A stretch of DNA of 21,243 bases. Origin: a virus. Location: the IMG/VR virus record IMGVR_UViG_3300009104_000826, positions 1 through 21,243 of that record; one strand, written 5' to 3'. A program made the position numbers and the translations under genes. Under the pieces are notes generated by a model. The model had not been told where the DNA came from, ran no database searches, and worked only from the letters and a program-made list of their open reading frames with translations. The first letter of the stretch is position 1. The number at the start of each line of letters is the position of its first letter. Shown piece after piece: positions 3,358-21,044 of this stretch.

Positions 3358-3893
3358 TGGATGTAAAAATCATAGATAATTTTTTTAGTAAGACAGCCTT
3401 TAATGATTTTAAATATGCCCTTGAAGAACCTAAGTGGGAAATTCGTCCACGGATTACACAAAAATATAACAGGGGAGCAGGGGCACAGCGTCATTTTGGA
3501 AACGAGGAGGGAGCATTTCACCTATCCCTTTATCCTGCTCATATTATTTCAAAGGAATTAGATAAGGAATACTACTGCCATAGGATGAGGTTCAGGGTTG
3601 CTTGGCTTTGTGATAACGCAGGAGTAAGACCACACATTGATGACTATGAGAATGACGGCTATAAAAACTATGACATCACAGCGGTCATCTACATGAATGA
3701 TTCAGATGGTGACCTTATTATCTATGATTGTGTTGCACCTGATCCTTATGTTGAAGGGTCAGAATATATTCGTATAACTCCAGAGAAAAACAAATGTGTA
3801 ATTATGATGAAACACTACTGGCATCATCCCTTAACCCCAAGGGAAACTGATCTAAGATACAGTATTAATATAAACCTTAAAGAATCAAAATGA
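3357..3893 (+). CDS. Putative 2-oxoglutarate/Fe(II)-dependent dioxygenase
   Basis: This 178-aa protein has the double-stranded beta-helix dioxygenase signature. The iron-binding HxD is at H93-D95 (VRPHIDDYE), a distal histidine is at H156 or H157 (YWHHPLTPRE), and ten residues later lies R167 (LRYSINI), the expected 2-oxoglutarate-binding arginine. Between them are strands typical of the prolyl-4-hydroxylase-like group (YDITAVIYMND, GDLIIYD). Such enzymes hydroxylate proteins, small molecules or nucleic-acid bases; the substrate cannot be told here. The start is TAATG, sharing one base with the reductase stop, and no Shine-Dalgarno sequence is evident, so it is probably made by re-initiation. 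Its place directly behind the reductase makes a nucleotide or DNA substrate possible, which is inference only. Confidence 0.8.
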   Translation: MDVKIIDNFFSKTAFNDFKYALEEPKWEIRPRITQKYNRGAGAQRHFGNEEGAFHLSLYPAHIISKELDKEYYCHRMRFRVAWLCDNAGVRPHIDDYENDGYKNYDITAVIYMNDSDGDLIIYDCVAPDPYVEGSEYIRITPEKNKCVIMMKHYWHHPLTPRETDLRYSININLKESK

Positions 3894-4114: not shown

Positions 4115-4262
4115 GCTACTGGCTCACGTGATTGATCAGCTAGTCACACAAGTAAATCAACTAGCCGTACTGACCGCTGACTTTTCTACGAGGCTTTCTT
4201 CTGTTGAAGACGCTCTCGCATCTTCTTCAACGCCTGCTCTCTTTGACGCAACAGAGTCATAG
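4101..4262 (+). CDS. Small predicted coiled-coil protein at operon end
   Basis: This frame encodes 53 residues from ATG 4101. It is strongly heptad-like (DELLAHVIDQLVTQVNQLAV, then a second LSSVEDAL), so a short coiled coil is likely. The start at 4101 is chosen because it overlaps the previous gene by only 14 nt and follows GGAGGAG at 4082-4088, although the 12-nt spacer is long. In-frame ATGs at 4038 (behind AGAGGAA, 7-9 nt away) and 4011 would lengthen it to 74 or 83 aa but overlap the previous gene by 77 or 104 nt. The last 77 nt lie antisense to the 3' end of the giant - strand gene, so coding here is less certain than in its neighbours. Confidence 0.5.
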   Translation: MTEDELLAHVIDQLVTQVNQLAVLTADFSTRLSSVEDALASSSTPALFDATES

Positions 4263-7200
4263 GTGGTGCGCTCTTACCTACTCTCTCCTTAAACTCATTA
4301 GCCAAGTTCTGTATTTTTTCCCTGTAATCCAGAGCGGCTTCCCTAATATCTTCCGCATCTTCCTGCATTATAATCATATTGGTAAGGTCACGCTTGGCTA
4401 GTCTCTGGAGCTTCTGTAATCTGGAGTACTCGTAACGCAGTTGTTTATTCCTACCTTCTGGTACAGCAATAGGTGTAATGTTGATACCGCCTAATCGTGC
4501 CGTGGCTTGTGGTAAGGTAAACCTAGCTTCCCCCTCCTTAGTTAGCTGACCTGTAACTGCTTCATACACACGCTTCCATGCACCGTACCCCTGTCCCGGC
4601 CCTTGACCTACGCCGTGGAGCATCGGAGGCATGGTCAGGTTGAAAGCAAACCATCCAATGTCAGCGGCCTGCTCGTCCCACGTACCGAAGTCATCTACTA
4701 TAGGCTGTCTTGTAAAACTATCTCTGCCTGACATAATAGCGGAAGCCACAGTTAGGGTAGGGCTACCCATTAATCCAGCGGTACGCATGGCCTTGCCAAA
4801 ATTACCATCAAACATTTCACCTAGTACCTCAGAGAACATACCCCACGGATAGAGGTAACTCACATCAATAAACTGTACCCTGCCATTTTCATCTAGGTAA
4901 GGCCACGGTATCACAGGATATGGGCCAACACCTTCTGCTTTTTCTCTAAGGTAATCACTCATGCTCACCCTAAGCCCCTTATACTTTTCCTCATCTAGAT
5001 CATGCATCTCTTTAAACAATTCCTTAGCACTCCATCCTAGTACGTAATACGGTAGAAACTTCCATGGTTTAGTGATTATAGTTTCCATTACAATAGGAAG
5101 GACAAAGCTAACAAATGACATGAAGGGTGCTCCAAACGGTGCCTGTCTTACCCACTTAACTGACGGTAGCGGATTGCTGTAATCAAACAAATACTTCTCC
5201 GCATCGTAAGCGGCATCATTGAGCTTTACTAACTCAGCATCTGAGTACGCATCGTAATCCTTTATCTTCAGTCCGGCCTTCTCCATTTTATATTTCAACA
5301 TCATCATCTTGCCAAGCGAGTCAATCCCGCCGTAAAAATCTGAGGTAGAATCACGCAGTACATTGAACGCTCCCTTTATTGGGCCAAGTACACGCATACC
5401 TGACTTCTCTTTTGCACTCATGCGTTGCATCAGGTCTTTAAATTCCTTCTCTATCCTGCCTAGCTCTGCGTTGCTGAAGTTACCAGCGGTCAGACCTAGG
5501 TCTTTAGAAAGCTGGTGTAGTTTACCACCATGCTTACCCATCTTCCGCATATCGGCGAGGGAGGAAAGCATCAGTCCCGGCATCCTATAGAAAGGAACGT
5601 CACCCAAGTTCATTAGTGTCAGGTTAGAAATGAAGTTACGTACCCACGATGGTGGATTGGCGGAGACCTTTGACCATTTCCACAGACGGTTATAGTCACC
5701 TATCTTACCGCCGTCACCGAACACACTCTCTGCCAGTGAGATATCACCTGTCGCCATGTTCATACTGCCGAAGATATCCTGCGCTATCTCCTTGCGTACC
5801 ACCATGCCAGCGAGTTGTCCATACTTAGGTGTTGCTGGTACCTGAGAGTAGAGTTTAGGATCAATCTTACCCTGTGTCTTTTCCATCTGCGCTTCCGCTT
5901 GCTTCCTCATATCCATAGTTAAATCTTTAACCATCTTGGTTTCTGCCTCACTAATATCAAGCAGTTGTGATTGCTTTAGAATCCTATCTGATTCGTTAGC
6001 TAACCAATAAGCGGAGACTGGACTACCTTCTGTGTCCACCAACTCTAATTGTTTCTGGAGATCGACACTGGCGGTGAAACTTTTCATCTTGCCTAGGACA
6101 TCGTACTGTACGAGGGAGGTAGGCAGTACCCAATTCTTATTCCCTGCAATAGTCTTGAGCCAGTCGATGATAGCGATGTCCTTCTGTGGTACAGCCACGG
6201 CTTTGCTGGCTAGGTAACCGGGGTCTTGTATCTCACCCAAGATCAGCTTGCGTATCCCCTCTGGAATATCCTTACGGCCTATGAGGTATGACATATCCAA
6301 GCCTAGCCCACCCTTAGTGGACGCTTTCCTGAAATTTTCCTCACCCAATAGGTACTTGAGGTATACCCTAGGGAGGTATTCACCTTCATGAAGTTCTTTA
6401 GTTTTTTGCTTCATGAGTTTGCGCTCGACTAGCATGTTACCTATCTCGTTGATCCTCTTCTTGGCAGAGAGAGCGGCCTGTCGCTCATTCAAATTTGAAA
6501 TCCTATTGGGATCAAAGTCCTTAGTGGTGAGGTACTTAAAAATCAAGTCCTTCTGCTTAGACTTCTTGAGTGCATCGTACAGCTTCTTGCCTGCCGTTTC
6601 TGCACTGGTAATTATGCCCTTCACCCTGCGCCTCAGAGCCTTATATTGAGCAGAGTCGGGGAGCGTACCTTGAGACACCAGACGCTTGGTTAGCCTGTCC
6701 GCAAATGGCTGAGTTGCCTGTGTCCATCTGGTAAATGGATTCCAACTACGTGTATCAATAGCATGTTTAGCTACACGTGACATCAGCACCTTGGAAGAGC
6801 GGACATTCCCTCTTGGATTTAGTATTGCTTCTGGCGTGAGGTCTTTCCTAGTAGGCTTGGCATCGTATATAGCACGTGCTTCCTTGCTGATAGTAACCTT
6901 ATCTCCTAGCTTCCTAGCAACTATACCACGTGATGTAACAGGCTTTGCCGTTACTCTTCTAACATTAGTTAATGGATAGCCATACTTAACCTTACCTCGT
7001 TTAATATCATAGTCTGATCCAGTCTTAACGAGATGCTTAGACTGATCCTTCTTAAACTCTGCACGGTTGTTGTATACCATTGGCTCACCCACGGTCATGT
7101 AGCCTACCAGTTGGGCTGGCCCCTTACCTGTACTGACTATACCAACTTCACTGCCTACATATTTCCTGAGACTATCGGTGTCTCTGGTTTCCATGGTCTT

Positions 7201-10200
7201 CCTGCCAGACAGTATCTGTCCTGTGAAGTCTTGTGTCTTGTCATTGATATTGACTCCCATTTTGCGTGGCAACTCTGACGCAGGCTTACCTTTAGTTTTA
7301 CCTCTCCACTCTGCTTCCAGTTCTTTTGCAGTTGGCCTGCGTACCATTCTGGAGAAGCGCAATAACTGCCGTGTACGTGGGTCTAGTTCTGTTCCTCTAA
7401 GAGCTTCACTAAGATAAGGACGGAACTCATCTTTAAAGGTCATTTCTTCGATTGCCGCATGGCCCTCTTCTTTCAGTTTATCAGCCAATGCTTTCCGTTT
7501 ATCTTTATAATATTTATACATGGTATTGAGATAGTCCTTAGACTCTTGGTCAAGGTCTTCGTCAATGGCAGATAACTTTAAATCCCCCTCTTCCTTATAG
7601 TCCTTCTGTATCAACGCTATTCTATCATTACCAATAAATTCTAACTGTGGTGCAATATCAGGGAGCGTCTGTATTTTAGTTACCTTTAAAGATTCTGCTG
7701 AAAAATCTTTAAGATAATCTTCTGCCATTTTTTTTAATTCCCTATTCTTCCCCTCTTCACTCATTATGAAAGCACCTACTGATTGCTCATGGCCTATGTT
7801 ACCCCATTGTAATTTTGCCAGAGCCTCTTCATTATCTAACGCCCTTTGCCCCCACGATCCTTTTCCTATTTTTTTCTGATCCTTGTAAGGTTGCATTATA
7901 TTCCTACCATCATCTGATACCTTCTCAAACCTTAGTGTAGATATACGTCCTCCGGGGTGGAGATATCGCTTAACACCTTCTGCACTACTATCATCTTTTT
8001 TATATATTATAATTTGTCCACCTACGTGAGTTAAGCTAGGTAGGATATTATTCAAATCAGCATCATCATCTATAAATATACGCACATCTTTTCCTACTCG
8101 CTGTAAATTAGGAAAGTAAGAATTAGCAAACACATCTACATTACCACCTACTAAGGTTAGTTCAGGTGCACTAATACCATGATTATCAAATTTAAAATTC
8201 CAACTAGCTGTTTCTATACTACGGTCTGGCCCCCAAGTAAGTTGTTTATGTTTTAGATTAAGGATAACATTACCCACCACAGCATAAAGACTAGGAAAAT
8301 CAGGATTAGATATTGTATGTGTTTTGTAAGGATTGTCTCCTATCCAATCCTTTTCTAAATGATTAGGTGCCGTTAGTAAATCACCACCTATAGTACGCAG
8401 GCTGTTAAACTGTAACTGTGCCGCTGAACTTTCATTTTCATCATACTGAGGACTATCTATAGGTGAACCTAATTCTACAAACTCTCCTACAGTTTCTAGT
8501 TTATTAAAATCTATAGCATGGTCTGCAAATTTATTTGATAAATCACCCTCTGCATCTGCATTATCCATGTGTCCCATTTCAAATCTAAAATCCTTATCAA
8601 TATTTACTAAGTTAGGTAACCCACGTACAGCATAATATTTATCCCATCTTAATGTTACATATTCATCACTCATAGGAGGTGACAATACAACTCTTCCAGC
8701 AGTTTCTAAATTATCAGCGGTGCCATTACCTTCTAAATTAACAAGGCCCGGTACTGCAGTAAGGTTAGGTAGTTCTACATGGCTCTTTAAATATAAACCA
8801 CTAACAGATTGTAGTGCATTAAACTTAATACGCATCTTCTCTATAGCATTTTCAAACTCCTCCTGTGATTTAAACGCAGGCTTATCCGCATCTTTATCTT
8901 CACTTAATCTTGCATAGTAGTCACTGAATGCTTTTGTAGCTCCATTATTAGTAAGTCCTACTTCAAATTCACCATATACTGTATGTAAGTTAGGTACATC
9001 CTTTTGGGTGCCGACTTTTTCATCATGCAAAATTTTGTCTCGTAAAGCACTTTCCTCTATATTTAATTTTCCTCCAGCAATTTTTATAATATCTAATATA
9101 TTTACCTGTTGAAAAGAATTTGCAGAGGTACTAATTACTGCATCTCCTGCTAATACTTCTACTGGAAACTCTCTTTGATCTGGCAAAATCTCTAGCTTTT
9201 CTCCACCAGTCCACCTAGCGGCATACCCCTCACCACTAGCTAACTCAGCCAATAGCGTTTTATCTTTTTTATCTGCCATCTGTTCCTGATATGCTTTATC
9301 TCCCCTGACCTTCCACTTTATTTTCTGTGTTTTTTCATCAGGTTTAAAATCTTTTAATAGCGGATAAATCTTTTCAATAGCAACCATTTCTTTTGTAGCA
9401 TTTTTAATCAAACGCTTAGCCTGAGATTCAATCTCTATTTTCCTACCCCACTCCTTACCTTTAGCTTCCAAGAACTCATTAACCGCAGGCGCATACTCTG
9501 GAATTAATGTGTTGTTATTATTCTGACCTTGAATTTCCACAACAGTTCTTTTTGTTTCTCCTTTAGCATATTTCTTTAATCCCTCCCCTTCATGAGATGC
9601 ACCTTCAAGTGTGTTGTCACTGTATTGCATTCGCAACCCTACTAAAGACCTTCCATTCCTTTGGTACACCCACATTGGCCCTTTCGGTGCAAACACTTTT
9701 TGATGCGTGAAAGCAGTACACCATGTATCATGGGAATGCTTTGCCCAGTAGTCGTAAATTTCCTGCTCTTCTACTGTGTTCCTTTTCTCTATAGGCATCA
9801 TAGGTAGTTCCCTCCATGCACCACCTTCTAATGTTAAGACAGGCTCACCTAATACTTTTAAATCTCGCAGGCGTTGCTCCTCTAAACGAATCACAATTTC
9901 AAGAAAGTCTTCACGTAAATGTCTAAGACTTGTATATTCTCCTTCTAAAAACCTTTCAAAAACCTGACTCACTGCATCGCCATGTCCCACTATAAGAGGT
10001 GGAGGAGTTGTATCAGTCTTGCCTACCTTCAGATTAAGTGCCCTCATCATTGCAGATTTAAAGAATGTAGGTGATCCCCAACCTTCTTCCATAAGATCAA
10101 TACCACCTTCTTGATTTTCTTGCATTGCTCCATCATCTTCATATGACATTTCAAGATACTCAGCATTCTGCCTATGAATATATTCATGCTCTTGAATTAT

Positions 10201-13200
10201 TATATCTTGATAGTTAGTATTTATTTTTTGAAGTTGATCCTCAGTTAAGTTTCGTATCTTAGTAAGTGCAGTAGAATGCATTCTTGGAGGTGGCCCTTGA
10301 GGGAATCCCTCAGTCATAAACTCATCATCACTTAACCCCATTGTCTGTGTAAATGCCGCCCTTAGATTATCATTGACAAGTAACATTGGTTGTGGATGAT
10401 CTTTAGCATAGTCAATGTGTCTTCTCAAATCCTCTATTCGTGATGGGGGTTTATAATTGTCAAAGGCTTTAAAGAAATCATAAAAAGGAAAATCGTCTGG
10501 TGCTTGTTTAAATTTATCCTTCTTTCTTTGAATGTAATTCTTTACAACTTCAGGCATATCTTTATTATTTATTATGTCCTTCTCATATTTCTTCCTTAAT
10601 CTTGCTACGGCTCCTGCATGTTCAGTGGATGCATGCCGAGGAGGTCGTCTGAGAAATGACCCTGATGTTTCACGATCTTTACCATAATATTGACTAGCAG
10701 TATCTATTAGTGTTTCTTTATGGAGTTCAAAATCTTCTTGGGCAACAAAATATAATTCTTCTATATCATTTATATAAGGTTTATTACCCGGCCCAAAATT
10801 AAACCACTGCTCTGCCCATTCCAGATAAGATGCTTCATGTGGCTGTAATCCTCTTCCTGTTCCCATCATCCCCTTATTTTCCTTATCCCATTGCTTGGTT
10901 CTCTTGGAATGGCGTACACGTTTCAGTACCTTCCTCAAGTCTTTTCGTGCACGTTTTACTTGTTTATCTAATTGTTTATCTAACTCCCTTAAATTCTTTA
11001 AGGCATCTGCTGATTTCTTTTCACCTCTTTGGAGGGGGATTTGGTCTCCAATCCTTTTAGCAATCTTGCCAATTCTCCTGACTCTGTTAGAAGCTGTAAT
11101 CCCTTTCTTTGCTTGGGTGACATTAGGTCTAGCAGAGAGTTGTTTGATTTGTTTTTCATAACCACCTTTTATTAAAATTTTACCTAGTTTATCTCCTGAA
11201 AGTAATATATCAAAATCAGGTACCTCCGCAATGATACCACTCAGATCATCTTCTACTGCTATCCTTTCTAATGTACGTGGATCACCTTCACCTTTTTCTG
11301 TTAATGCTTTTATAAAACTCCACACAGTTTCCTGCACCTCTGCTGGCTTCCATGTCTCACCAGTTTTTTCAGTTAAAAAATTTGCGGCTCTTCTAGCTGA
11401 AGCAGAAGCTATAATATATTCAGGGGTTTTTAATTCTACTGGAGTACCTATAACATCTCCGGGCAATTTCCTTTTAATATTCTTAATAGAACTATCTACA
11501 ATACCATAGGCTTTCCACATCCACGCATCATTAGTTACTTCATCTAAATTACCTAAGAGGTTTTGTAGGAAACTATTAACCTTGGCTCCAGAAAGTACTA
11601 GATTATCTGGATCAGTTGTAGCTAAAGCACGGATAGAGTTTGGTATCCATGTTGGTAAAATAGAACTACCCCTAGTCGCCACGCCTTTTTCTACAGAGTT
11701 TTCCATAATATCAAGTATAGACTTTCGATCTGTAGGTCTTCCTGCTTTATCCCAATTAACCCATACAGACACAGCATTAAAAGCATTAGATTCTACGCTA
11801 GTACGTGGGGAAAGTGCGGATAGCAATGCAGTAAATCTAGTAGCATCTTTACCAAAGACAGTTTTAATTGTCCCCATAGAGTTAATGTACCATCCTTTTT
11901 TTATCCTTCCGGCAAGAGACATTGAAACTAAGTCCCCTAACTTTGTTCCTGTCTGACCGGGTATTCTAGTTATACCAAAATCCCCTTCTCCTAGTCTTGC
12001 TCGTACAACATCAATCATTCTATCCACATTCTCAGGCTTCAGCATATCCAGTTCTTCTGCTGTCATGTACTCAATGAGGGGGCGAACTCTTGAGTCTGAT
12101 TTAAGTGCCGCTATGACATTCTCCTCTACCTGAGCAGTGCCACCGTATGCCTTGATCTTTTGTTTAGCGAATCGTATGGTCTTACCATCTACCACCTGAG
12201 TAGGTACAGCTTTAGTCACAGGATTCTTTGCTAATACAAAGCCACCTATCTGGATTACCTCATCGGCAGAAGCTAGTGGTGTCCCCTTAGTAAACTTACC
12301 CTTAGTTTCCTTGATATAAAAAGATGACTGGACTTCTGGATTGTATCCTATCTGTATCCACGCAGATCTATTCTTCCTTACATCTGCTAATTTTTTAAGG
12401 TCACTATCTGATGTTCCCTTCCATATACCCCTCATAGTTGCAAAAGGAGTTTTTGTTTCCCCCTCTGCTACTTCAAGTGCGGCAGTAGGTAAAGGTGCTT
12501 TAAATGTAACATCTTCTAAATGTGCTGTGCTTCCGTAGATTTTAGGTGTGCCTTTGCGTGGGTAACGAGAAATAGTAGGCACCCATGTATCAAATTTTTC
12601 ATAGGCAGGAATATCCAGACGGACATCTACCATCTCGTCAATTGAGTTGCCTTCCTTATCAATTCCTAAGTTTGCCTCCCTAACCAGTAATCCTTCTTTA
12701 TACTTGCGTGTATTTATAGACCCTAAGATTTCTTCTTCAGTAGCAGGGGTAGGTACGGTCTCAAATTTTCTGATAGGTAAATATTTATCAACGCCTTCTT
12801 GATATTCTTCATACGTGGCCTCGCCCTTTCTTAGTCTCTCAGCTATTGCCTGTAGTTCTGGTACTCTAGGTCTGCGCCCCTTACCTTTTTGATTCTCAGT
12901 TTTAGCGGCCCAAGTTTGTGCTTCCCTTAGAGTCATCCTGCGTTTGGATGCACGTACACCCTTAGCTTTTTTAGCTTCCCTCGCCGCAGTGACATCCTCT
13001 GTCAGCATATCTATAGGTCTTCTCTTTTCGTCAAGTACCTCAGTCACATCTGTCTTAGCTTTAGTCTTACGCAAATGCTCTTGGTATTTCTGTACCTTTT
13101 CTTTCTGAGTCAGTTCTTTCTCTTCTGGCTTCTCCTCTTCAACCACAGCTAGTGGCTTAGACTTCACCCAGTTAGAAGGATCAAACAAGTCGCCTGTGAT

Positions 13201-15816
13201 AATGTTACGCTTACCGCCTAGGTATTCACGTTGTACACTTGCCAGCATCTCCCTTGCCTTGACCTTAGATGCTCTATCCTTACCTAGTATCTTTGAGAAA
13301 TAAGTACTCAATGCATCTGTAGTTCTCTCTAGGATATGAGGATCACGTACACCATACTCTGTAAATTTATGTGCTAGATATTCCTCTGCAAGTTCTCGCT
13401 TCTTTTCAGTAGTAAGTTCTGTATCTACTTTCTTCTTCAATCCTAAACGTTGTCTCAGGCCGGGACGCTTTAACTTTTCAGGATCGTAATCCTTATCCAG
13501 ATACGCTGGTACATTCTCTGGAGTAACTTCAGTTACTGCCCATTCGTTAATGTCCTGCATATTAGTTTCATAGAAACGATCTAGGAATGAATTAAATTCC
13601 TCATCACCTAAAGTCTTTCTCATACCTAGGTGAGCGATAGGCTCATGGAAAACTCCTACCTCTACGGCCCTGCCTATAGCATCCTGTATTGTTTCTCCCC
13701 TGATGTTATCTGCTACTAAGTAGACCTTATCTTCACCTTCAATAATAAAGGCTTCGCTGTCACTAAGATACCCTTGTGCATCTGCCAAATACTCCGGCCC
13801 ACCTAAGATATTAGCAAGTCGGTTAGTATCGTTCTTATCCAGTACTACATACTTAACATCTTTCTTAGGTTGGAACTGCCTGAACAGTGCTTCTAGTTTT
13901 ACTTTAGGTACGGATACTCCACCTTCTATTGCTCCTGTTACAGCGGACTTGAGAACTTTAGGAGCCTTTAACTTCTTCTTAACCTCTCTCTTGGTTTCCT
14001 TTTTTAATTGTTCAGATGTTTTTAACGGACGCTTTGCAAAGTCTGCCTCTGCTTTTTCAAGTGCCTTGAGCCTATTCTGATAATTTAACAACTGACGCTC
14101 ACGCTTTATTCGTATAGCATTAGCCTCAACTATTTCCTCTGCAGTTAGCATTGAGCCGTCCTTTCTTACTGGTGAAGTAACTGACGGCAATCTCTTTTTA
14201 ATATTATCTAGTACCTCTCGCTCTCTCTCTAACGCCTTTCTTGTAGCCGCAAAATCAGTCCCTCTAGATAAACGAATACTCTCCTCTTCGGCTCTTTCCA
14301 TTGCTAGAACTTCTTCCCTAGCGTATTGTTCCTGCTCTTGTTGCTTTGCTTTTTCTCCCTGCTTCTCTATTTCATTGGCTCGTTTGACTGCCGCTCTCCT
14401 TGCATCGTAGGCTTTTTTCCCTGCGGCAAATTTTAAAGTATTAAGATATGACTTATCAGAAGCCTCCATCTGCTCCCAACTTTCAAAACCATTTTCCCTT
14501 GCTACAGCATTCTGAGCATCCCTCTTTCTTCTCTGTGTATCTGTTCCTAGTAATCTTTGTTCGTCTGATTTAGCTAGAGTTTCGTTGTACCTCTTTATAA
14601 AATCTGCTTTGAGTTCTTGTTGTTTTTTAGTTGAGGTTCTAGGTGCATCCACACGTTTGTCTGCTACCAATTGTTCGACTGTAGTAAAGCCAGCACCGTA
14701 GAGTCCTTCCTGTACCAGAGACTTTGTCCACAATTCCTTATCACTTGGGCCTAGATTTAAGATAGCCAAGCGCATTTCCTCAGCTTTGTCTTTAGGTATA
14801 CCATACTCCGCTAGGGTATCTGTAACATCTTCTGCATATAGGTAGTTATCCCACACCTCAGAGGTAGCACCTAATCCCATGTCTGCCATCCAACGGAATA
14901 GTGGTTTACCAAACCGTGCAAAGGACATCATTTCTAACAGTCCTGATGTATACAGTCTATGACCAAAGGAAGTTTGTGATGCATCCTCTGCAAATTCCTG
15001 TACTATTCGTTTTTCTTGTTCTGGAAGGTCTTTGAATGGAATGTGAGTGGACACACCCAATGCTAAACGTACAGTCTCATCTTCTTGTGCCCTGCTATAG
15101 GCTTCACCAGATACGTAAGCAGACGATGCTAGATTCCCTGCGGTCATTGCAAGAGCAGAACTGCCTGCCATTAATCCCAAACCTGTCAGTCCTCCTGCCG
15201 CTAATAATGGTGTGCCAGCAAGACTAACTCCTAAGCCTACTGCCGCAGGAGTTAAACTTGGAGCCGCACTTCTAGCTAGTTCATGACCTGTGGGCCAGTA
15301 TTCAGGGAGATGTTGATATAGGGATTCGGGATCTTCTTTTAGGATTTCTTCACGTGTTTGGGGACGAGCTACCAGATCAGCCTTACGTTGCTGTTCGGCT
15401 CCCCATTCCTCAGCCGCATCTCGTACATAACCTTCGTATTCTTCTGGCATCCAGCCAGCTAAAGGGCCGCCAACAAAGTCGGCTATGCCTGCACCAGCTT
15501 CATATCCTCCTGCTTTAAGTTGATCTATAAAATCAGGATCATCTATGTATTTCTCTTCTTCAGCATCTGGTGTAGGAGTATACTCAGGTCTGCGACCTAC
15601 ATCAAATGCTGTTCCAAAATAATCCTTATGAATGTCCTGATAATAATTATCTGAATCAGAGAAAAAATCTGCAGGGGTAGGGGTAGTTAGTTGGTTTTTT
15701 GCTGACTCTTTTTCTGCAGGGTCATCAATACCTTGTTCATCTATATATCTTCTTACAGCCTCCTCACGTGATTCTCCGGGGTGCCTGTAAAGAGCTAACC
15801 AAGTTTCTAAATTCAT
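4186..15816 (-). CDS. Giant polyvalent internal-virion/ejection protein
   Basis: One uninterrupted 3876-aa frame fills 55% of the window. Regions in order: Gly/Ala-rich hydrophobic stretch (about 185-240); Glu/Lys/Arg coiled coil (about 470-660); metallopeptidase-like FHEPIAHLG (H724, E725, H729), preceded by IRGETIQDAIGRAVEVG; RRPRVPELQ and a 'KYLP' segment (about 980-1020); WIQIGYNP and SADEVIQIGGFVLAKNP (about 1150-1200), both frequent in phage polyvalent proteins; SPRTSVESN (1336) with SGAKVNSFLQNLLG (1409) and WMW (1432), resembling DUF7178; HEYIH (1877); WCTA (2032) with EIQGQNNNN (2094); LRR/beta-solenoid-like repeats (about 2273-2615); ASCH-like ILSGRKTMETR (2868-2878); and an LPD38-like C-terminus with APFGAPFMSF (about 3555) and a terminal coiled coil. 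Polyvalent proteins are carried in the virion and enter the host with the DNA to counter host defences or prepare infection. That role is inferred from architecture, and no virion RNA polymerase motifs were found. The ATG lies 7 nt after the previous stop, with no Shine-Dalgarno. Confidence 0.93.
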   Translation of the reverse strand: MNLETWLALYRHPGESREEAVRRYIDEQGIDDPAEKESAKNQLTTPTPADFFSDSDNYYQDIHKDYFGTAFDVGRRPEYTPTPDAEEEKYIDDPDFIDQLKAGGYEAGAGIADFVGGPLAGWMPEEYEGYVRDAAEEWGAEQQRKADLVARPQTREEILKEDPESLYQHLPEYWPTGHELARSAAPSLTPAAVGLGVSLAGTPLLAAGGLTGLGLMAGSSALAMTAGNLASSAYVSGEAYSRAQEDETVRLALGVSTHIPFKDLPEQEKRIVQEFAEDASQTSFGHRLYTSGLLEMMSFARFGKPLFRWMADMGLGATSEVWDNYLYAEDVTDTLAEYGIPKDKAEEMRLAILNLGPSDKELWTKSLVQEGLYGAGFTTVEQLVADKRVDAPRTSTKKQQELKADFIKRYNETLAKSDEQRLLGTDTQRRKRDAQNAVARENGFESWEQMEASDKSYLNTLKFAAGKKAYDARRAAVKRANEIEKQGEKAKQQEQEQYAREEVLAMERAEEESIRLSRGTDFAATRKALEREREVLDNIKKRLPSVTSPVRKDGSMLTAEEIVEANAIRIKRERQLLNYQNRLKALEKAEADFAKRPLKTSEQLKKETKREVKKKLKAPKVLKSAVTGAIEGGVSVPKVKLEALFRQFQPKKDVKYVVLDKNDTNRLANILGGPEYLADAQGYLSDSEAFIIEGEDKVYLVADNIRGETIQDAIGRAVEVGVFHEPIAHLGMRKTLGDEEFNSFLDRFYETNMQDINEWAVTEVTPENVPAYLDKDYDPEKLKRPGLRQRLGLKKKVDTELTTEKKRELAEEYLAHKFTEYGVRDPHILERTTDALSTYFSKILGKDRASKVKAREMLASVQREYLGGKRNIITGDLFDPSNWVKSKPLAVVEEEKPEEKELTQKEKVQKYQEHLRKTKAKTDVTEVLDEKRRPIDMLTEDVTAAREAKKAKGVRASKRRMTLREAQTWAAKTENQKGKGRRPRVPELQAIAERLRKGEATYEEYQEGVDKYLPIRKFETVPTPATEEEILGSINTRKYKEGLLVREANLGIDKEGNSIDEMVDVRLDIPAYEKFDTWVPTISRYPRKGTPKIYGSTAHLEDVTFKAPLPTAALEVAEGETKTPFATMRGIWKGTSDSDLKKLADVRKNRSAWIQIGYNPEVQSSFYIKETKGKFTKGTPLASADEVIQIGGFVLAKNPVTKAVPTQVVDGKTIRFAKQKIKAYGGTAQVEENVIAALKSDSRVRPLIEYMTAEELDMLKPENVDRMIDVVRARLGEGDFGITRIPGQTGTKLGDLVSMSLAGRIKKGWYINSMGTIKTVFGKDATRFTALLSALSPRTSVESNAFNAVSVWVNWDKAGRPTDRKSILDIMENSVEKGVATRGSSILPTWIPNSIRALATTDPDNLVLSGAKVNSFLQNLLGNLDEVTNDAWMWKAYGIVDSSIKNIKRKLPGDVIGTPVELKTPEYIIASASARRAANFLTEKTGETWKPAEVQETVWSFIKALTEKGEGDPRTLERIAVEDDLSGIIAEVPDFDILLSGDKLGKILIKGGYEKQIKQLSARPNVTQAKKGITASNRVRRIGKIAKRIGDQIPLQRGEKKSADALKNLRELDKQLDKQVKRARKDLRKVLKRVRHSKRTKQWDKENKGMMGTGRGLQPHEASYLEWAEQWFNFGPGNKPYINDIEELYFVAQEDFELHKETLIDTASQYYGKDRETSGSFLRRPPRHASTEHAGAVARLRKKYEKDIINNKDMPEVVKNYIQRKKDKFKQAPDDFPFYDFFKAFDNYKPPSRIEDLRRHIDYAKDHPQPMLLVNDNLRAAFTQTMGLSDDEFMTEGFPQGPPPRMHSTALTKIRNLTEDQLQKINTNYQDIIIQEHEYIHRQNAEYLEMSYEDDGAMQENQEGGIDLMEEGWGSPTFFKSAMMRALNLKVGKTDTTPPPLIVGHGDAVSQVFERFLEGEYTSLRHLREDFLEIVIRLEEQRLRDLKVLGEPVLTLEGGAWRELPMMPIEKRNTVEEQEIYDYWAKHSHDTWCTAFTHQKVFAPKGPMWVYQRNGRSLVGLRMQYSDNTLEGASHEGEGLKKYAKGETKRTVVEIQGQNNNNTLIPEYAPAVNEFLEAKGKEWGRKIEIESQAKRLIKNATKEMVAIEKIYPLLKDFKPDEKTQKIKWKVRGDKAYQEQMADKKDKTLLAELASGEGYAARWTGGEKLEILPDQREFPVEVLAGDAVISTSANSFQQVNILDIIKIAGGKLNIEESALRDKILHDEKVGTQKDVPNLHTVYGEFEVGLTNNGATKAFSDYYARLSEDKDADKPAFKSQEEFENAIEKMRIKFNALQSVSGLYLKSHVELPNLTAVPGLVNLEGNGTADNLETAGRVVLSPPMSDEYVTLRWDKYYAVRGLPNLVNIDKDFRFEMGHMDNADAEGDLSNKFADHAIDFNKLETVGEFVELGSPIDSPQYDENESSAAQLQFNSLRTIGGDLLTAPNHLEKDWIGDNPYKTHTISNPDFPSLYAVVGNVILNLKHKQLTWGPDRSIETASWNFKFDNHGISAPELTLVGGNVDVFANSYFPNLQRVGKDVRIFIDDDADLNNILPSLTHVGGQIIIYKKDDSSAEGVKRYLHPGGRISTLRFEKVSDDGRNIMQPYKDQKKIGKGSWGQRALDNEEALAKLQWGNIGHEQSVGAFIMSEEGKNRELKKMAEDYLKDFSAESLKVTKIQTLPDIAPQLEFIGNDRIALIQKDYKEEGDLKLSAIDEDLDQESKDYLNTMYKYYKDKRKALADKLKEEGHAAIEEMTFKDEFRPYLSEALRGTELDPRTRQLLRFSRMVRRPTAKELEAEWRGKTKGKPASELPRKMGVNINDKTQDFTGQILSGRKTMETRDTDSLRKYVGSEVGIVSTGKGPAQLVGYMTVGEPMVYNNRAEFKKDQSKHLVKTGSDYDIKRGKVKYGYPLTNVRRVTAKPVTSRGIVARKLGDKVTISKEARAIYDAKPTRKDLTPEAILNPRGNVRSSKVLMSRVAKHAIDTRSWNPFTRWTQATQPFADRLTKRLVSQGTLPDSAQYKALRRRVKGIITSAETAGKKLYDALKKSKQKDLIFKYLTTKDFDPNRISNLNERQAALSAKKRINEIGNMLVERKLMKQKTKELHEGEYLPRVYLKYLLGEENFRKASTKGGLGLDMSYLIGRKDIPEGIRKLILGEIQDPGYLASKAVAVPQKDIAIIDWLKTIAGNKNWVLPTSLVQYDVLGKMKSFTASVDLQKQLELVDTEGSPVSAYWLANESDRILKQSQLLDISEAETKMVKDLTMDMRKQAEAQMEKTQGKIDPKLYSQVPATPKYGQLAGMVVRKEIAQDIFGSMNMATGDISLAESVFGDGGKIGDYNRLWKWSKVSANPPSWVRNFISNLTLMNLGDVPFYRMPGLMLSSLADMRKMGKHGGKLHQLSKDLGLTAGNFSNAELGRIEKEFKDLMQRMSAKEKSGMRVLGPIKGAFNVLRDSTSDFYGGIDSLGKMMMLKYKMEKAGLKIKDYDAYSDAELVKLNDAAYDAEKYLFDYSNPLPSVKWVRQAPFGAPFMSFVSFVLPIVMETIITKPWKFLPYYVLGWSAKELFKEMHDLDEEKYKGLRVSMSDYLREKAEGVGPYPVIPWPYLDENGRVQFIDVSYLYPWGMFSEVLGEMFDGNFGKAMRTAGLMGSPTLTVASAIMSGRDSFTRQPIVDDFGTWDEQAADIGWFAFNLTMPPMLHGVGQGPGQGYGAWKRVYEAVTGQLTKEGEARFTLPQATARLGGINITPIAVPEGRNKQLRYEYSRLQKLQRLAKRDLTNMIIMQEDAEDIREAALDYREKIQNLANEFKERVGKSAPPMTLLRQREQALKKMRERLQQKKAS
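7970..9000 (-). repeat. Leucine-rich beta-solenoid-like repeat array inside the giant gene
   Basis: Residues about 2273-2615 of the giant protein contain eight or more degenerate units of the form [L/F]PxLxxVGGxVxI. Examples are VPNLHTVYGEFEV, LPNLTAVPGLVNLEG, FNKLETVGEFVELG, FNSLRTIGGDLLTAPN, FPSLYAVVGNVILN, APELTLVGGNVDVF, FPNLQRVGKDVRIF and LPSLTHVGGQIIIY. Each has a leucine, a VGG-like turn and a short hydrophobic strand, as in receptor-L/leucine-rich solenoids. The repeats are protein-level: the DNA has diverged and shows no exact tandem copies. Spacing is irregular because loops such as DNESSAAQ are inserted. Confidence 0.7.
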
Positions 15817-15823
15817 GAATTAA

Positions 15824-18034
15824 CTATCGAACTTTAATTGATCTGGAACCGTATCTCTTTTTTCCTTTTGATCCTTTTTGGTTTGCCTCCCTATCTTTTT
15901 TACGTTGTAACATTTCTACTAACTTATTCCTTAATCTTGCATTACCTAATGGGCCTTCATACAAACCATACTGATCATTTTCTTTAAGGAACACAGCCTC
16001 ATCTTCCAATTCAACTTCCTCCTCTTCTGTTAAATTCTTTTTCATTTTAGATAACTTATCATCAGGCTCTTCTATGCGTTCTACTTCCTTTAATGGATCA
16101 GATTTTTTAGGATTATTTACTTTTTCTTGAAGCTCTGTAGTTTTATTATCCTGTGCAGTACGCAATCCACCTTCTATCATATCATGCCACTTACCATAGT
16201 TACCTTTCATTATCTTGTCACGAATCCTAGGCAGAACATACCCCATATATTGCTGTCTAGATATCTCCGATATATTATTACTCTTACCATTAGTTATAGC
16301 TAATGCTATTTCCGGCTTATCTCCTGCCGCCATTCCTTCAATAGTTTGCCATGAGGGTATTCCCTGACCTTCCAAAATATCAGACCACGTTTTACCTTTA
16401 TTATCTCCTGTATCTATAGTAGTTCCTAAGAGTTGATCTAATGCCTTGCTATCACCTGATCGTTTAACAAGATCAATTTTTTCTACAAGTTTATTTCTAA
16501 AACTAAAGTAACCATTAAATACCTCCTTACCCATTTGTGACTTTGCTTTTTGTAATGGTGGTAATTTTTTTAACCTATCATCTATAGCTTTTTGTACATT
16601 ATCGACATTGAAATTTTTCTGTGACCCCGGCAATATAGATTCTAGAGTATCACTGTAGGCTTGTGCCTCATCCCAACGTCTGCTTTTTACAGCATCTTGA
16701 AATCCACTAGCGGCGGCATTAAACTGTGCCTTATCTGAATCAGACATTTTTTCTGTACTTGATTTACTTTTTAATTCTGCTATCTGTAGCTTTAATTTTT
16801 CTAACTCTAGTAATTCCTTAGCAGATTTTTTCTGTGTTAAATTAAAATCTTCATCATCAATAAGTTTCCATTTATGTAATAGTGCCGCACGATCTTCTTG
16901 TGGTATATTCTGTAACAGATTCATCTTCTCTTTTCTATCGAATAAATTATCTAGTTCCCCCTTATTAAGAACAAATCCACCTTCGCCAGTGCCTGCACCC
17001 TCGTACCGTACATATCTACCTGTCGCTTCCTTAGCGGCTAGGTATCCTTCATCCTGTCTACCATTAGGTGCAGTCTTAGCTATCTCTTCAAAAACTTCTT
17101 TTGCCTCCTCCTGTGGCATATTCTGCATATTCTCTTGGACTGTAAACTCCTCATTAACTGCTCGCTCCTCTTCGTCCTGAGCCATGCGCTTCATCATCTT
17201 CTCTTTATCTTGAGCCATACCCTCCATCATCTGCTCTTCTATACCAGCTTGTCGTTCTGAAGATAAACGACCAATGCCTGTTTCTGCTAGTCTGTCTAGC
17301 TCACTCATCTCCGTATCTTCTTTAGTTTTACCATACTGCTTTTTATGAAGTCCCGGCATAATTTCATTTTTCATATGCCCTGTTTCAAAAGTTTCGCCCG
17401 GATATGGTATTCCTAAAACGTGTCTTTGATATTTTAATCTTTCTAATTTATTTTGAATCTCCCCTGCTTGATTTGCCTCTAATTCTGAAAGTGGTATTCC
17501 TTCTAATTCACCTCTTCTTTTATGTCTTTCTTTTTGGTGTTGGAATAGTGGTACAGAAGCTAATGTTCTTTTATCGTATTCCTCATCCATCATCTTATCT
17601 GTTGCTTCTTTACGAGCACTGTAATCATCTAACCTACTTTTTACACGTGAGTCTTGTCTCCAACTATCTGTTAAACCTATACCTTCACGTTTTGCTTTTT
17701 CCTGAAGTCTTGCTTCTACTTCCTCTTGTGATCTAAGAGTTGGAAACTTTTCCTTGGCATATTCTTTCATTCGATCCAGCAATCCCGGCCCTTCTACCTC
17801 ATCACTTGTTCTTTTATAATTATAAAACTGAGGTGCAATATCTCTAATTTTTTCCATCTCCCTCTTCCTTTTTAATTCCACTAAATCAGGAGCTAGTTTT
17901 TTTGCGGCTTCTTTACCTTTTAACCTTGCTCTTATTTGAGCATCAGTTGGTGGTCTATAAAGTTTTGGCTCTGGCTTTTCTGCCGCAATTTTTCTAAGTT
18001 CTTCTAGGGTATATCCTTCTTCTTCTCTAGCCAT
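15824..18034 (-). CDS. Charged coiled-coil protein, probable internal virion protein
   Basis: This 736-aa protein is not recognised by family. It is very rich in Lys, Glu, Asp and Gln, with long predicted helices, for example residues about 240-320 (Met/Gln/Glu-rich) and about 405-440 (LLELEKLKLQIAELKSK). An 11-residue near-repeat, MMEGMAQDKEK then MMKRMAQDEEE, lies near residues 268-290. The C-terminus is strongly basic (KKRYGSRSIKVR), as in proteins that contact packaged DNA. No signal peptide, membrane segment or catalytic motif is visible. AGGAAGG at 18041-18047 lies 6 nt before the ATG, supporting this start. Its place between the 257-aa protein and the giant, with spacing of 13 and 7 nt, suggests a virion ejection component; that is inferred from context. 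Confidence 0.85.
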   Translation of the reverse strand: MAREEEGYTLEELRKIAAEKPEPKLYRPPTDAQIRARLKGKEAAKKLAPDLVELKRKREMEKIRDIAPQFYNYKRTSDEVEGPGLLDRMKEYAKEKFPTLRSQEEVEARLQEKAKREGIGLTDSWRQDSRVKSRLDDYSARKEATDKMMDEEYDKRTLASVPLFQHQKERHKRRGELEGIPLSELEANQAGEIQNKLERLKYQRHVLGIPYPGETFETGHMKNEIMPGLHKKQYGKTKEDTEMSELDRLAETGIGRLSSERQAGIEEQMMEGMAQDKEKMMKRMAQDEEERAVNEEFTVQENMQNMPQEEAKEVFEEIAKTAPNGRQDEGYLAAKEATGRYVRYEGAGTGEGGFVLNKGELDNLFDRKEKMNLLQNIPQEDRAALLHKWKLIDDEDFNLTQKKSAKELLELEKLKLQIAELKSKSSTEKMSDSDKAQFNAAASGFQDAVKSRRWDEAQAYSDTLESILPGSQKNFNVDNVQKAIDDRLKKLPPLQKAKSQMGKEVFNGYFSFRNKLVEKIDLVKRSGDSKALDQLLGTTIDTGDNKGKTWSDILEGQGIPSWQTIEGMAAGDKPEIALAITNGKSNNISEISRQQYMGYVLPRIRDKIMKGNYGKWHDMIEGGLRTAQDNKTTELQEKVNNPKKSDPLKEVERIEEPDDKLSKMKKNLTEEEEVELEDEAVFLKENDQYGLYEGPLGNARLRNKLVEMLQRKKDREANQKGSKGKKRYGSRSIKVR

Positions 18035-18047: not shown

Positions 18048-18821
18048 TTATGCCATAGCTTTTAATTCTGCATCTTGCTTCTGCTTCTTTGCTAAAGCCT
18101 CGTCAATAAAAGATGCTTGTTGCCCCTTTTGATCTACTTCTGTTACCTTCTTTGGTTGTAAAAATCCTCCACCCTCATGTTGAAAAGTCTCTGTCTCAAT
18201 ATAATTTGATGGTTTTGCTTCAGGAGTCTGTGCTTTTGCAATTACATTCTCCCAATCTCCCATAGTAGTAGGCTTTAAGTCTAACCCTTCTACATCTTTA
18301 TTCAATAGCCCCATAAATCCACCCTTATGTTTCTGCAATGCGGCTGTATTCCTTGTATTCTTATCTTCCAATCTTAATGCATACTCCATCCCTAACCTTC
18401 CTGAAGGATCAAGATTATCTAAGCGTGTCTGCATAGCTTGATCAGCCTTTGCTTGATTTGTTAATTGCAATGCGGCCTCTCCAGCTTTCTTTGCTGACAT
18501 AGCACTACCTACCTGAGATGCCATACCAACTAAATCTCCATACTCATTACGGACAGCCCTGCCCTCTGAGTCTGTGCCTAGCATAGCCTGATCAATCATG
18601 GCTCCACCACCCATTTTTTCACTCATACCCATCGTGTAGTATGCGGCGGCGGCTCTAGCTCCGGCACTTAGTAATTTTTGCAGTCCTGAACGCTGTCCGC
18701 TTTTCCTTATTCTAGCTTCCCTTGCTGATTCAGCTTCTCGCCTCTTTGCATCAGTAGTTTTATCTAATGCCCTTTGCCTTATATCTAATTGGTAATCTGT
18801 TCCGCCTGCTTGGAATGCCAT
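18048..18821 (-). CDS. Hypothetical structural protein, possible small internal virion protein
   Basis: This 257-aa protein was not matched to a family. The N-terminal half is helical and basic (DKTTDAKRREAESAREARIR, residues about 20-39). A short Ala-rich segment follows (LLSAGARAAAAYYTMGM, about 50-66), then Ala/Gln-rich helices (AMSAKKAGEAALQLTNQAK). The C-terminal part is polar and Gly/Lys/Glu-rich and probably flexible. The moderate hydrophobicity around 50-66 is too weak and too short to call a membrane helix. AAGGAG at 18827-18832, 5 nt before the ATG, supports the start and overlaps the stop codon of the upstream gene. It lies between two large virion-type genes of the same operon, which is the only hint of function. 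Confidence 0.82.
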   Translation of the reverse strand: MAFQAGGTDYQLDIRQRALDKTTDAKRREAESAREARIRKSGQRSGLQKLLSAGARAAAAYYTMGMSEKMGGGAMIDQAMLGTDSEGRAVRNEYGDLVGMASQVGSAMSAKKAGEAALQLTNQAKADQAMQTRLDNLDPSGRLGMEYALRLEDKNTRNTAALQKHKGGFMGLLNKDVEGLDLKPTTMGDWENVIAKAQTPEAKPSNYIETETFQHEGGGFLQPKKVTEVDQKGQQASFIDEALAKKQKQDAELKAMA

Positions 18822-18825
18822 GTTT

Positions 18826-18832
18826 ACTCCTT
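18826..18832 (-). promoter_or_regulatory. Shine-Dalgarno AAGGAGT for the 257-aa gene
   Basis: On the - strand, AAGGAGT is followed by AAAC and the ATG at 18821. It overlaps the end of the upstream stop codon (18831-18833), so translation of the two genes is probably coupled. Confidence 0.65.
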
Positions 18833-21044
18833 ATGATAATAATTTCATCTGGATACCAAGTTTATGGTAGTCAACCATATAGTATCCATCTGAGTGTTTT
18901 CTTACTGAATCAGCGTGTTTAGTTCCTAGTAGTTCCTGAGCCATTACACCTGACCATCTATGCTTTGGTTGCCATTTATAATTAAATGAATAGATATTTG
19001 GATCACCGCCCTTTCCTTCTTCAAGAAGTTCAATGTTTTCTTTGAGTCTAATATCTGATATGCCTAATGCTCTAGTGACTCCCCCAAGGATTCCTCCTCC
19101 TCCACCACCACCACCGCCTGCATTTGCGGCGGCATTAGCTTGCCTCTGTTTCTCTGCTTCACTTAATTGAAATTGCTCAGTCTGTTGAGCAATAACATCA
19201 TTCAACTGAGCCTGTGTCATACCAGCCTGTTCGCCTATCATGCCACCTTTAGCTTGCAGTGCCCCCATACCCTGACCATACATTGAGGCTTGTTGCTGTA
19301 TGCCTTGACCAGTCATGCCAGCGGCTCCTTGTGCCATTGCCGCCTGACCTTGTAGTGACTGTAGTTGTGCTGATTGCTGTGCTTGTGCACCCTGCATTGC
19401 CATACCAGCGGCCTGACCTCTGAGTGCGGCTTGCTGTGCGCCCTGACTCTGTAGCTGTGCCTGACCCTGCATCTGTTGACCAGTTGCACCTAGAGCTTGC
19501 CCCATTAATCCTGCGGCGGCTCCCATCTGTGCCTGCCCCATCTGCTGGCCTTGTAGTTGTGATGATAGTGCTTCAGACCTTGAGGCCATTGACTGGTCAC
19601 TAGCAGATTGTCTCTGGAACTGTGCCACTTTAGCGGCTATCTCTGCAGGGGATGCACCAGACTGTGCCATTTCACGCCGTAGCTTTTCCTCACTACCCTT
19701 CTGGCCTGCCATGCGTTGCTGTTCCATCTGGCCCTGCAACATTGCCGCCTGTGATTGACCAGCTTCACCAGATGCTACCTTGTCTGCCATGCCTGCTATT
19801 TGACTTTCATAGCCAGCCTGACGGCCCATAATATCCTGTGTGCCTGCTTCCAGTCCGCCTATTTTATCTGCGCCTGCACTTATTCCTGCTTCACCCTTCT
19901 TAGCTTCAGCGGCTATTGCATCACCAGTTATCCCTTTGTATTGTTCACCTAGTCCTTCCAACTGACCAGCACCCTTGTCTTGTGCCGCTCTAGCTTCTCC
20001 TGCCATAGTGTCAAACTTACTCTGGTATCCACCCAGTTTATCACCTAGTTCCTTATACTCACCCTTGTAACCTTCGTAGGAACCGCTAGTATCCATCTTT
20101 GCTGTAGATTCATCAAAACCACCTTTCATTGTTGCAGTTTCAAAATCAAACCCTTCTTCACCTTCTTTCTTACCAGAAGCATCCGTCATAACTCCACGGT
20201 CTTCTGCTGTCCTGCCTTCGGCATCTCTCATTACCCCCTTAGTATGCCTCTCTCTTTCACGGCCTAGTCTACCTCCTTCATGTTTTTCTGTAGCGGCCTT
20301 TCTATCTGATTCCCACTTCTCTTTTGCCCTTGCTTTTCTTTGTGCTTCTATCTGTTCAGGAGTCATAACTGGGGCACCAAAGGCACCAAAACCGCCTCCG
20401 CCGCCTCCGCCTCCACCACCAGTCATACGCTTATGGTACTGTTCTGCATTCTCACCCGGTCTCATACCTCCTCCCGGTGCTTTCCCTTTTGGTTTTGGGC
20501 CTTTTCCTGCTTTCCAATCTTGCATCCTAGATGCCCATCTATCTATATTCTTAAAATATTCCTTTTGATTTCTAGAGTGTAAGGTTCCAGTACTTCTCAT
20601 TCCTTGCCTTCTTTCACTTGCAGATTCTTTTTTACCAGAATGAGTAGCTCTCTGCCCTCCTCCTCTATCACTTTTTTTACTGGTCATTCTTTTATCACCA
20701 CCACCCGGAGGCCGAAAACTAGGTACACCATACGGAGTCATTTCACCACTACCGCCTTGTTCTTTTAACATCTCCATCTCTTCAGGGGTAACATAGGCTA
20801 ACTGTTCAGTTTCACCCTGTGGAGTTTCATACTGCTCAGGAACTTGCACCATCCTCTCTTTATCTTTCTGTAGCTGTTTCCAAGCCATCATTTTGTCCAT
20901 CATGCCTTTACTTTGGGCCTGATCAGCTTGTATCATCTTGCCTACTTCTTGACGATGCATCTGTTGTGCTGGTGTTAATGGTCTGCCTTTAGCCATTTGT
21001 TTTGCGAGTCCAGTCATTCCTCGTTGTCTTTTTTTAAATGCCAT
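18831..21044 (-). CDS. Gly/Gln/Ala-rich virion protein with C-terminal peptidase-S74-like domain
   Basis: This 737-aa protein has three parts. The N-terminal 300 residues are charged and low in complexity, with a basic start and a run of ten glycines. Residues about 330-655 are a long Gln/Ala/Gly/Met-rich region with many QGQ, QAQ and GMG units and a second run of nine glycines; it may be helical or disordered. The last 75 residues, from S663, read SDIRLKENIELL, then YSFNYKW, WSGVMAQELL and YYMVDYHKLG. This is the signature of the S74 intramolecular chaperone, which helps trimeric phage fibres fold and can cleave itself before the Ser. Such domains usually end tail fibres or spikes, but here the body is not fibre-like and the neighbours look like ejection proteins. 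A fibre role is therefore uncertain. The start lies 1 nt after the upstream stop (TAATATG). Confidence 0.88.
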   Translation of the reverse strand: MAFKKRQRGMTGLAKQMAKGRPLTPAQQMHRQEVGKMIQADQAQSKGMMDKMMAWKQLQKDKERMVQVPEQYETPQGETEQLAYVTPEEMEMLKEQGGSGEMTPYGVPSFRPPGGGDKRMTSKKSDRGGGQRATHSGKKESASERRQGMRSTGTLHSRNQKEYFKNIDRWASRMQDWKAGKGPKPKGKAPGGGMRPGENAEQYHKRMTGGGGGGGGGGFGAFGAPVMTPEQIEAQRKARAKEKWESDRKAATEKHEGGRLGRERERHTKGVMRDAEGRTAEDRGVMTDASGKKEGEEGFDFETATMKGGFDESTAKMDTSGSYEGYKGEYKELGDKLGGYQSKFDTMAGEARAAQDKGAGQLEGLGEQYKGITGDAIAAEAKKGEAGISAGADKIGGLEAGTQDIMGRQAGYESQIAGMADKVASGEAGQSQAAMLQGQMEQQRMAGQKGSEEKLRREMAQSGASPAEIAAKVAQFQRQSASDQSMASRSEALSSQLQGQQMGQAQMGAAAGLMGQALGATGQQMQGQAQLQSQGAQQAALRGQAAGMAMQGAQAQQSAQLQSLQGQAAMAQGAAGMTGQGIQQQASMYGQGMGALQAKGGMIGEQAGMTQAQLNDVIAQQTEQFQLSEAEKQRQANAAANAGGGGGGGGGILGGVTRALGISDIRLKENIELLEEGKGGDPNIYSFNYKWQPKHRWSGVMAQELLGTKHADSVRKHSDGYYMVDYHKLGIQMKLLS
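19092..19118 (-). repeat. Triplet repeat encoding nine glycines
   Basis: Nine consecutive GGN codons (four GGA, four GGT, one GGC) lie just before the hydrophobic ILGGV segment that precedes the S74-like domain. The tract is probably a flexible hinge and could change length by polymerase slippage. Confidence 0.8.
20391..20420 (-). repeat. Triplet repeat encoding ten glycines
   Basis: Ten consecutive GGN codons (GGT, GGA and GGC mixed) follow KRMT in the N-terminal part of the 737-aa protein. The mixed codons suggest selection for glycine rather than recent pure-triplet expansion. Confidence 0.8.

Follow-up and report, generated by a model that had tools for sequence, protein, structure and literature searches.

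The IMG/VR virus fragment analyzed in this study (21,243 bases; the window) contains an open reading frame of 3876 aa, which raises the questions of whether so long a frame encodes a real protein and what such a protein could do for a virus. According to the ORF listing and its translation, the frame runs uninterrupted on the minus strand from an ATG at position 15816 to a stop at position 4186, and reading the same stretch on the plus strand encounters stops throughout. An open frame of 11.6 kb excludes chance, and conservation of the frame in the related loci L001, L002, and L005 rules out both a chance ORF and a frameshift artefact. Hence, the large protein at 4186-15816 proposed in a preliminary description of this DNA, which had named no strand, is real and encoded on the minus strand.

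In transcription order, the operon comprises the truncated end of a gene (65 aa) and genes for proteins of 737, 257, 736, and 3876 aa. The genes past the stop of the giant gene run in the opposite direction and include ribonucleotide reductase-like and DUF3987 helicase/primase-like genes, among others; capsid, portal, and tail genes were not found in the 21-kb fragment. The gene context is of a late, structural type, with a DNA-ejection PHROG matched in a neighbor of the giant gene and structural neighbors in its relatives. In L025, head closure (Hc3) and DNA ejection proteins are encoded upstream of the corresponding gene; in L021, the upstream genes specify a tail spike, a DNA ejection protein, and a structural protein of the virion. 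The 737-aa neighbor (18831-21044) is rich in Gln, Gly, and Ala, and its DNA-ejection PHROG match is confined to the S74-type intramolecular chaperone end. On the plus strand, a 178-aa protein (3357-3893) has a PHIDD...H pattern which, judged by eye, resembles 2-oxoglutarate/Fe(II) dioxygenases.

Table 1 Features of the giant gene and its operon. Positions refer to the window and residues to the 3876-aa protein.
Feature	Positions	Strand	Remarks
Whole gene, 3876 aa	4186..15816	(-)	Closes the late-type operon; ORF listing and translation
N-terminal region, residues 1-470	14407..15816	(-)	Among relatives, related to L005 only
Putative HExxxH zincin-like metallopeptidase region, residues 685-845 (HEPIAHLGMR)	13282..13764	(-)	Homologous region in many relatives
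WIQIGYNP/SADEVIQIGG module, residues 965-1199	12220..12924	(-)	Also in CRP-207, CRP-9, MW202701, L005, and L024
DUF7178/phrog_3842 domain, residues 1308-1446	11479..11895	(-)	Weak matches; also matched in L002
Second HExxH motif, EHEYIHRQNAEYL	10147..10209	(-)	Counterpart in L002: EHEEIHKENALYL
WCTA-motif region, residues 1998-2130	9427..9825	(-)	Without family profile match
LPNLxxV-type repeat solenoid, residues about 2270-2730	7627..9009	(-)	Repeats; common to L001 and L002
Probable ASCH domain, residues 2855-2977	6886..7254	(-)	Sub-threshold Pfam match; 42.6% identity to L028
C-terminal chassis module, residues 3014-3876	4189..6777	(-)	C-terminal in 42 IMG/VR loci and MW202615
Part of the chassis aligning with C2/A-4L ORF26, about residues 3318-3594	5035..5865	(-)	hhalign
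LPD38-equivalent segment, residues 3683-3722 (DSFTRQPI)	4651..4770	(-)	Weak Pfam LPD38 match in L024
736-aa neighbor	15824..18034	(-)	N4 gp51-like by position and size only
257-aa neighbor	18048..18821	(-)	N4 gp52-like by position only
737-aa neighbor	18831..21044	(-)	C-terminus matches phrog_4287 'DNA ejection protein'/S74-like chaperone

The giant combines several unrelated parts in one chain, namely the HExxxH region, the DUF7178/phrog_3842 domain, a repeat solenoid, a probable ASCH domain, and a C-terminal module that we refer to as the chassis. The preliminary description had listed a hydrophobic N-terminus, an HExxxH domain, the motifs WIQIGYNP and SADEVIQIGG, a 'WCTA domain', a solenoid, and an ASCH-like part. 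Most of these were recovered, whereas the WCTA domain is reduced to a motif and the hydrophobic N-terminus comes down to one segment (residues 192-210) of modest mean hydropathy (1.55). Residues 1-470 are 29% identical to L005. The HEPIAH motif is located at residue 724, and the counterparts of HEPIAHLGMR in the homologous regions of relatives (HEYLGHYGLR, HESLGHDGLR, HEIGVHYGKR, HELGHFGMR, and others) follow the pattern HExx(x)HxGxR. The HExxxH form is known from one group of metallopeptidases in polyvalent proteins (Iyer et al. 2017, PMC5512222), and the region is a putative zincin-like metallopeptidase of the polyvalent clades. The WIQIGYNP and SADEVIQIGG motifs were located at residues 1153 and 1183, respectively, within a segment (residues 965-1199) that is ~30% identical in gp58 of Roseobacter phage CRP-207, encoded two genes past the portal gene, and ~34% identical in L005 and L024. 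As judged from sequence, this segment is a mobile module. In CRP-207 (L004, 10600-13437) it resides in a 945-aa protein without the chassis.

For the DUF7178 region, the phage collection contained no close homologue, and the patterns used retrieved none from IMG/VR beyond L002. The second HExxH motif (HEYIH, residue 1877) is kept in L002. The WCTAF sequence at residue 2032 had zero family profile matches, and the sister L002 reads WCWF in place of WCTA. The solenoid rests on its repeats, as the LPNLxxV-type pattern was matched seven times in residues 2260-2730, compared to a mean of 0.47 and a maximum of 4 matches in 2000 shuffles. The WCT/solenoid region had no close homologue in the phage collection and, with the patterns used, none beyond L002 in IMG/VR. 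An AlphaFold model of residues 1975-2985 (WCT-solenoid-ASCH) reached a pLDDT of 44 and was left out of the fold search. The match of the window to ASCH (PF04266; 13.4 bits, E 0.002, nt 7114-7233) is below the Pfam cut-off of 21.2 bits, whereas the L028 segment, to which it is 42.6% identical, exceeds this cut-off with 28.2 bits. Searching PDB sequences with the ASCH segment, A5, or A6 likewise produced no useful match.

In contrast to the variable part preceding it, the chassis is constant. It forms the C-terminus in every complete case among 42 IMG/VR loci and in the podovirus ctwe8250 protein, and its length is fairly uniform across the 42 loci (about 740-960 aa). The preceding part ranges from ~140 aa (L007, L025) to ~3000 aa (L043, L044), and minimal family members of 927-1109 aa consist almost entirely of the chassis. 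Pfam scans of the variable part detected ART-PolyVal (L005, L028, L043), InPase (L042, L043), an Eco57I-type methylase with a helicase (L043), a strawberry-notch helicase (L027, L042), Acb1 with a methylase (L010), GGDEF (L037), and ASCH (L028). These domains are of a kind typical of early effectors, and the list of polyvalent domains in PMC5512222 covers ART-PolyVal, InPase, methylase-helicase, and GGDEF. In bacterial genomes only one chassis locus was found, in a Deferrisomatales MAG. An N-terminal injection domain shared across the family was not found, except between the window and L005, between L003 and L037, and within the group L012/L014/L038; as the N-terminal regions are mostly unrelated, a common injection mechanism is no more than a possibility.

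Comparison of close relatives points to an exchange of cargo onto a constant C-terminal carrier. The chassis is about 80% identical among the window, L001, and L002, and the stretch just upstream of it holds ASCH in the window, a different insert in L002, and neither in L001. Between the window and L028, ASCH is 42.6% identical and the chassis 26%. A variable stretch before a constant chassis, together with an ASCH domain that is closer than the chassis, is the pattern expected of cargo exchange. The L002 insert, which lies between solenoid and chassis in the place of ASCH and contains a GKGHATKTM motif, was considered as a GNAT and gave no Acetyltransf_1 match. The preliminary description had further suggested that the combination of WCTA, solenoid, and ASCH may be new. 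Indeed, none of the other proteins found here shows it: both L002 and the 5'-truncated L001 possess the solenoid but lack ASCH, and L002 additionally contains the WCT-like motif. However, since cargo varies freely in this family, one more combination is unsurprising, and the novelty lies more in the C-terminal module.

The window chassis had zero Pfam or PHROG family matches. Its AlphaFold model is all-helical (pLDDT 77, pTM 0.75). Foldseek returned no match among solved structures, and VIA-align yielded only generic helical or membrane-protein/helical-bundle matches. Since both missed PDB entry 9k3a despite the profile homology described below, the absence of matches there proves nothing. A fold search against viral predicted structures (BFVD) retrieved 33 proteins at E ≤ 0.001. 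Names such as large polyvalent protein, ART, helicase, or Zeta toxin were frequent among them, and they included the Anabaena phage A-4L tail protein (E 2e-8), whereas N4-like vRNAPs (8e-3 and 1.6e-2) narrowly missed this threshold. Profile comparison aligned the chassis with the C2 family of N4 vRNAP (hhalign 95.3%, E 2.2e-8, 253 columns; profile built from ten Schitoviridae polymerase C-terminal regions) and with the A-4L ORF26 family (hhalign 98.1%, E 1e-13, 350 columns; profile built from five cyanophage ORF26-type proteins). A-4L ORF26 corresponds to chain A of 9k3a (1114/1114 residues identical), which is named tail protein. The alignment with C2 covers only about one third of the chassis, and this part contains the motifs NPPSWVRNFISN (3387-3398) and LFDYSNPLPSVKWVRQAPFGAPF (about 3543-3565).

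Whether these matches reflect common ancestry or merely helical composition had to be considered, as the proteins are helix-rich, the VIA-align matches were to helical bundles only, and the N4 C2 and A-4L profiles did not match each other directly (0.4%), so that the window's family bridges both. We regard a compositional origin as improbable. Reversed profiles gave 0.4% and 0.0% and eight column shuffles ≤0.3%, and four controls from unrelated large ejection-type proteins and the vRNAP N-terminal part (N4 gp51, A-4L ORF27, A-4L ORF28, and N4 gp50 residues 1-2375) likewise stayed at ≤0.3%. Furthermore, the aligned motifs are specific (N..SN..L...GVP; F.NYD/FDYS..P..VK followed by PF), and the BFVD fold search found the A-4L tail protein and the vRNAPs independently. 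These results argue that C2 of N4 vRNAP is a homologous member of a widespread chassis family.

The N4 vRNAP gp50 (Schitoviridae) resembles the window protein in its size, its place at the end of a late operon, its zincin-like domain, and its C2 region. The gene layout is also alike, with a 16.5-kDa gp52, a 66-kDa gp51, a 3500-aa gp50, and convergent genes, although the partners in the window are matched by position and size alone. The C-terminal 1,400 aa of gp50, which contain two domains, are required for encapsidation (PMC5512222; the requirement is also stated in PMC4496689, citing unpublished data). Of these two domains, the metallopeptidase alone was connected to other proteins and the downstream one was not (PMC5512222). 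More recently, C2, which belongs to the region required for encapsidation, was described as a new fold without structural homologue, and N4 vRNAP as being ejected together with gp51 and gp52 (2025, PMC12633501). N4 C2 also regulates (represses) its polymerase. Unlike gp50, the window protein had no RNA polymerase match in Pfam and PHROG scans of the full protein, its HExxxH domain is located in the N-terminal third instead of directly before C2, and the N-terminal regions of the two proteins are not detectably related.

Other known proteins share parts of this architecture. Over ~350 columns the chassis is homologous to ORF26 of cyanopodophage A-4L, whose gene likewise belongs to a series of genes for large late proteins; unlike the giant, ORF26 has 1114 aa with little extra cargo and is annotated as tail protein or tail fibre. 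The 2166-aa protein of MW202615 (Podoviridae sp. ctwe8250) has the full-length chassis (25% identity, E 2e-44) and an HExxH metallopeptidase and is encoded by the last gene before convergent genes, whereas its cargo differs and its N-terminus matches N4 vRNAP and DarB PHROGs. This chassis polyvalent protein (L003, 10978-17478) is annotated as 'DNA repair protein'. The protein at L058 (16766-20110) and its homologues in Leptolyngbya and Phormidium phages are annotated as tail protein or 'tail fiber; host specificity'; given their homology to the N4 vRNAP-related chassis family, proteins of this type are probably core or ejection proteins. With the polyvalent proteins (PMC5512222), the giant shares a very large chain of unrelated domains, the HExxxH metallopeptidase, and a late-gene neighborhood. 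The terms ASCH, WCT, and leucine-rich are absent from the main text of that study, and the C-terminal module of the window has no Pfam LPD match.

The late-operon position beside ejection-type proteins, the HExxxH metallopeptidase, the ASCH domain, and the C2-homologous C-terminus make a virion-delivered multi-effector polyvalent protein the best reading of the giant, well supported by inference. Specifically, the giant is probably packaged in the virion, injected, and built on a reusable C-terminal carrier. For packaging, ejection order, cleavage, and all cargo activities we infer the following course. The giant would be made late, packed into the capsid via its chassis, and ejected after the 257-aa and 736-aa partners, which would act like N4 gp52 and gp51. 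It would pass the tail and an envelope channel as a string of small domains. The new host would then be the target of its cargo (the DUF7178 domain, the WIQIGYNP module, the WCT/solenoid region, and ASCH), which the giant's own HExxxH metallopeptidase may first set free. As N4 C2 also regulates its polymerase, the chassis need not be a carrier only; it may be part of the ejection channel too, and 'carrier' is a working name.

The conserved C-terminus could instead be essentially structural, as the pore or core of an ejectosome comparable to the T7 gp16-like channel, with the N-terminal domains being accessories and not effectors. A gene that is third in an ejection-protein-like operon, the hydrophobic helix within the chassis (residues 3559-3581), the minimal members with hardly any cargo, and the placement of A-4L ORF26 in a row with large internal or tail proteins would all suit such a role. 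Yet the cargo of the relatives is enzymatic and highly variable, a misfit with a purely structural role, and Foldseek found no match to solved ejection proteins. We therefore consider this explanation a serious but lesser possibility, and it may overlap with virion delivery, since the carrier could form a channel as well. ASCH and GGDEF are also known as single domains of non-virion proteins, which would be compatible with an unpackaged, intracellular late protein that targets host defence or the replicating genome in the late phase. The location of the gene among ejection-type and structural genes and the homology to both the vRNAP region needed for encapsidation and a solved protein named tail protein render such a function unlikely.

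Beyond virion delivery of the giant itself, the constancy of C2 combined with exchangeable cargo suggests that phage effectors are delivered on a common chassis. Whether the chassis is a general phage carrier for capsid entry and ejection, with one homologous C-terminal module and varied cargo, we consider evenly balanced. If it is, N4-like phages would use it to deliver their RNA polymerase, and others to deliver ARTs, helicases, methylases, an anti-CBASS nuclease, cyclases, or a solenoid with ASCH. New injected anti-defence effectors could then be found by reading what precedes the chassis, for example in the Acb1-bearing protein of L010. This protein (5510-9952) combines the chassis with Acb1 (anti-CBASS) and a methylase-like domain, which makes it a candidate for an anti-CBASS effector that is injected. 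With C2 recognized as the constant element of the family, its role in N4 also becomes directly testable, and labels like 'DNA repair protein' and 'tail fiber' are corrected by the chassis homology.

The C-terminus of the giant had been described as LPD38-like. In Pfam terms this did not stand, as the window protein remained below every threshold for LPD38 (PF18857); its end is a much larger module, to which LPD38 proteins may be distantly related. The chassis HMM matched the LPD38-positive prophage giants L072 and L073 with E 1e-4 to 2e-4 (hhalign 62.7%, at the FDYS motif). Pfam LPD38 proteins resemble the window protein in the C-terminal position of the domain in giant phage proteins and in the FDYS-type motif region, where the relation is faint. 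Bacterial genomes of one phylum (10/395 genomes searched) contained LPD38-positive frames (L063-L073), with lengths reaching 5154 aa.
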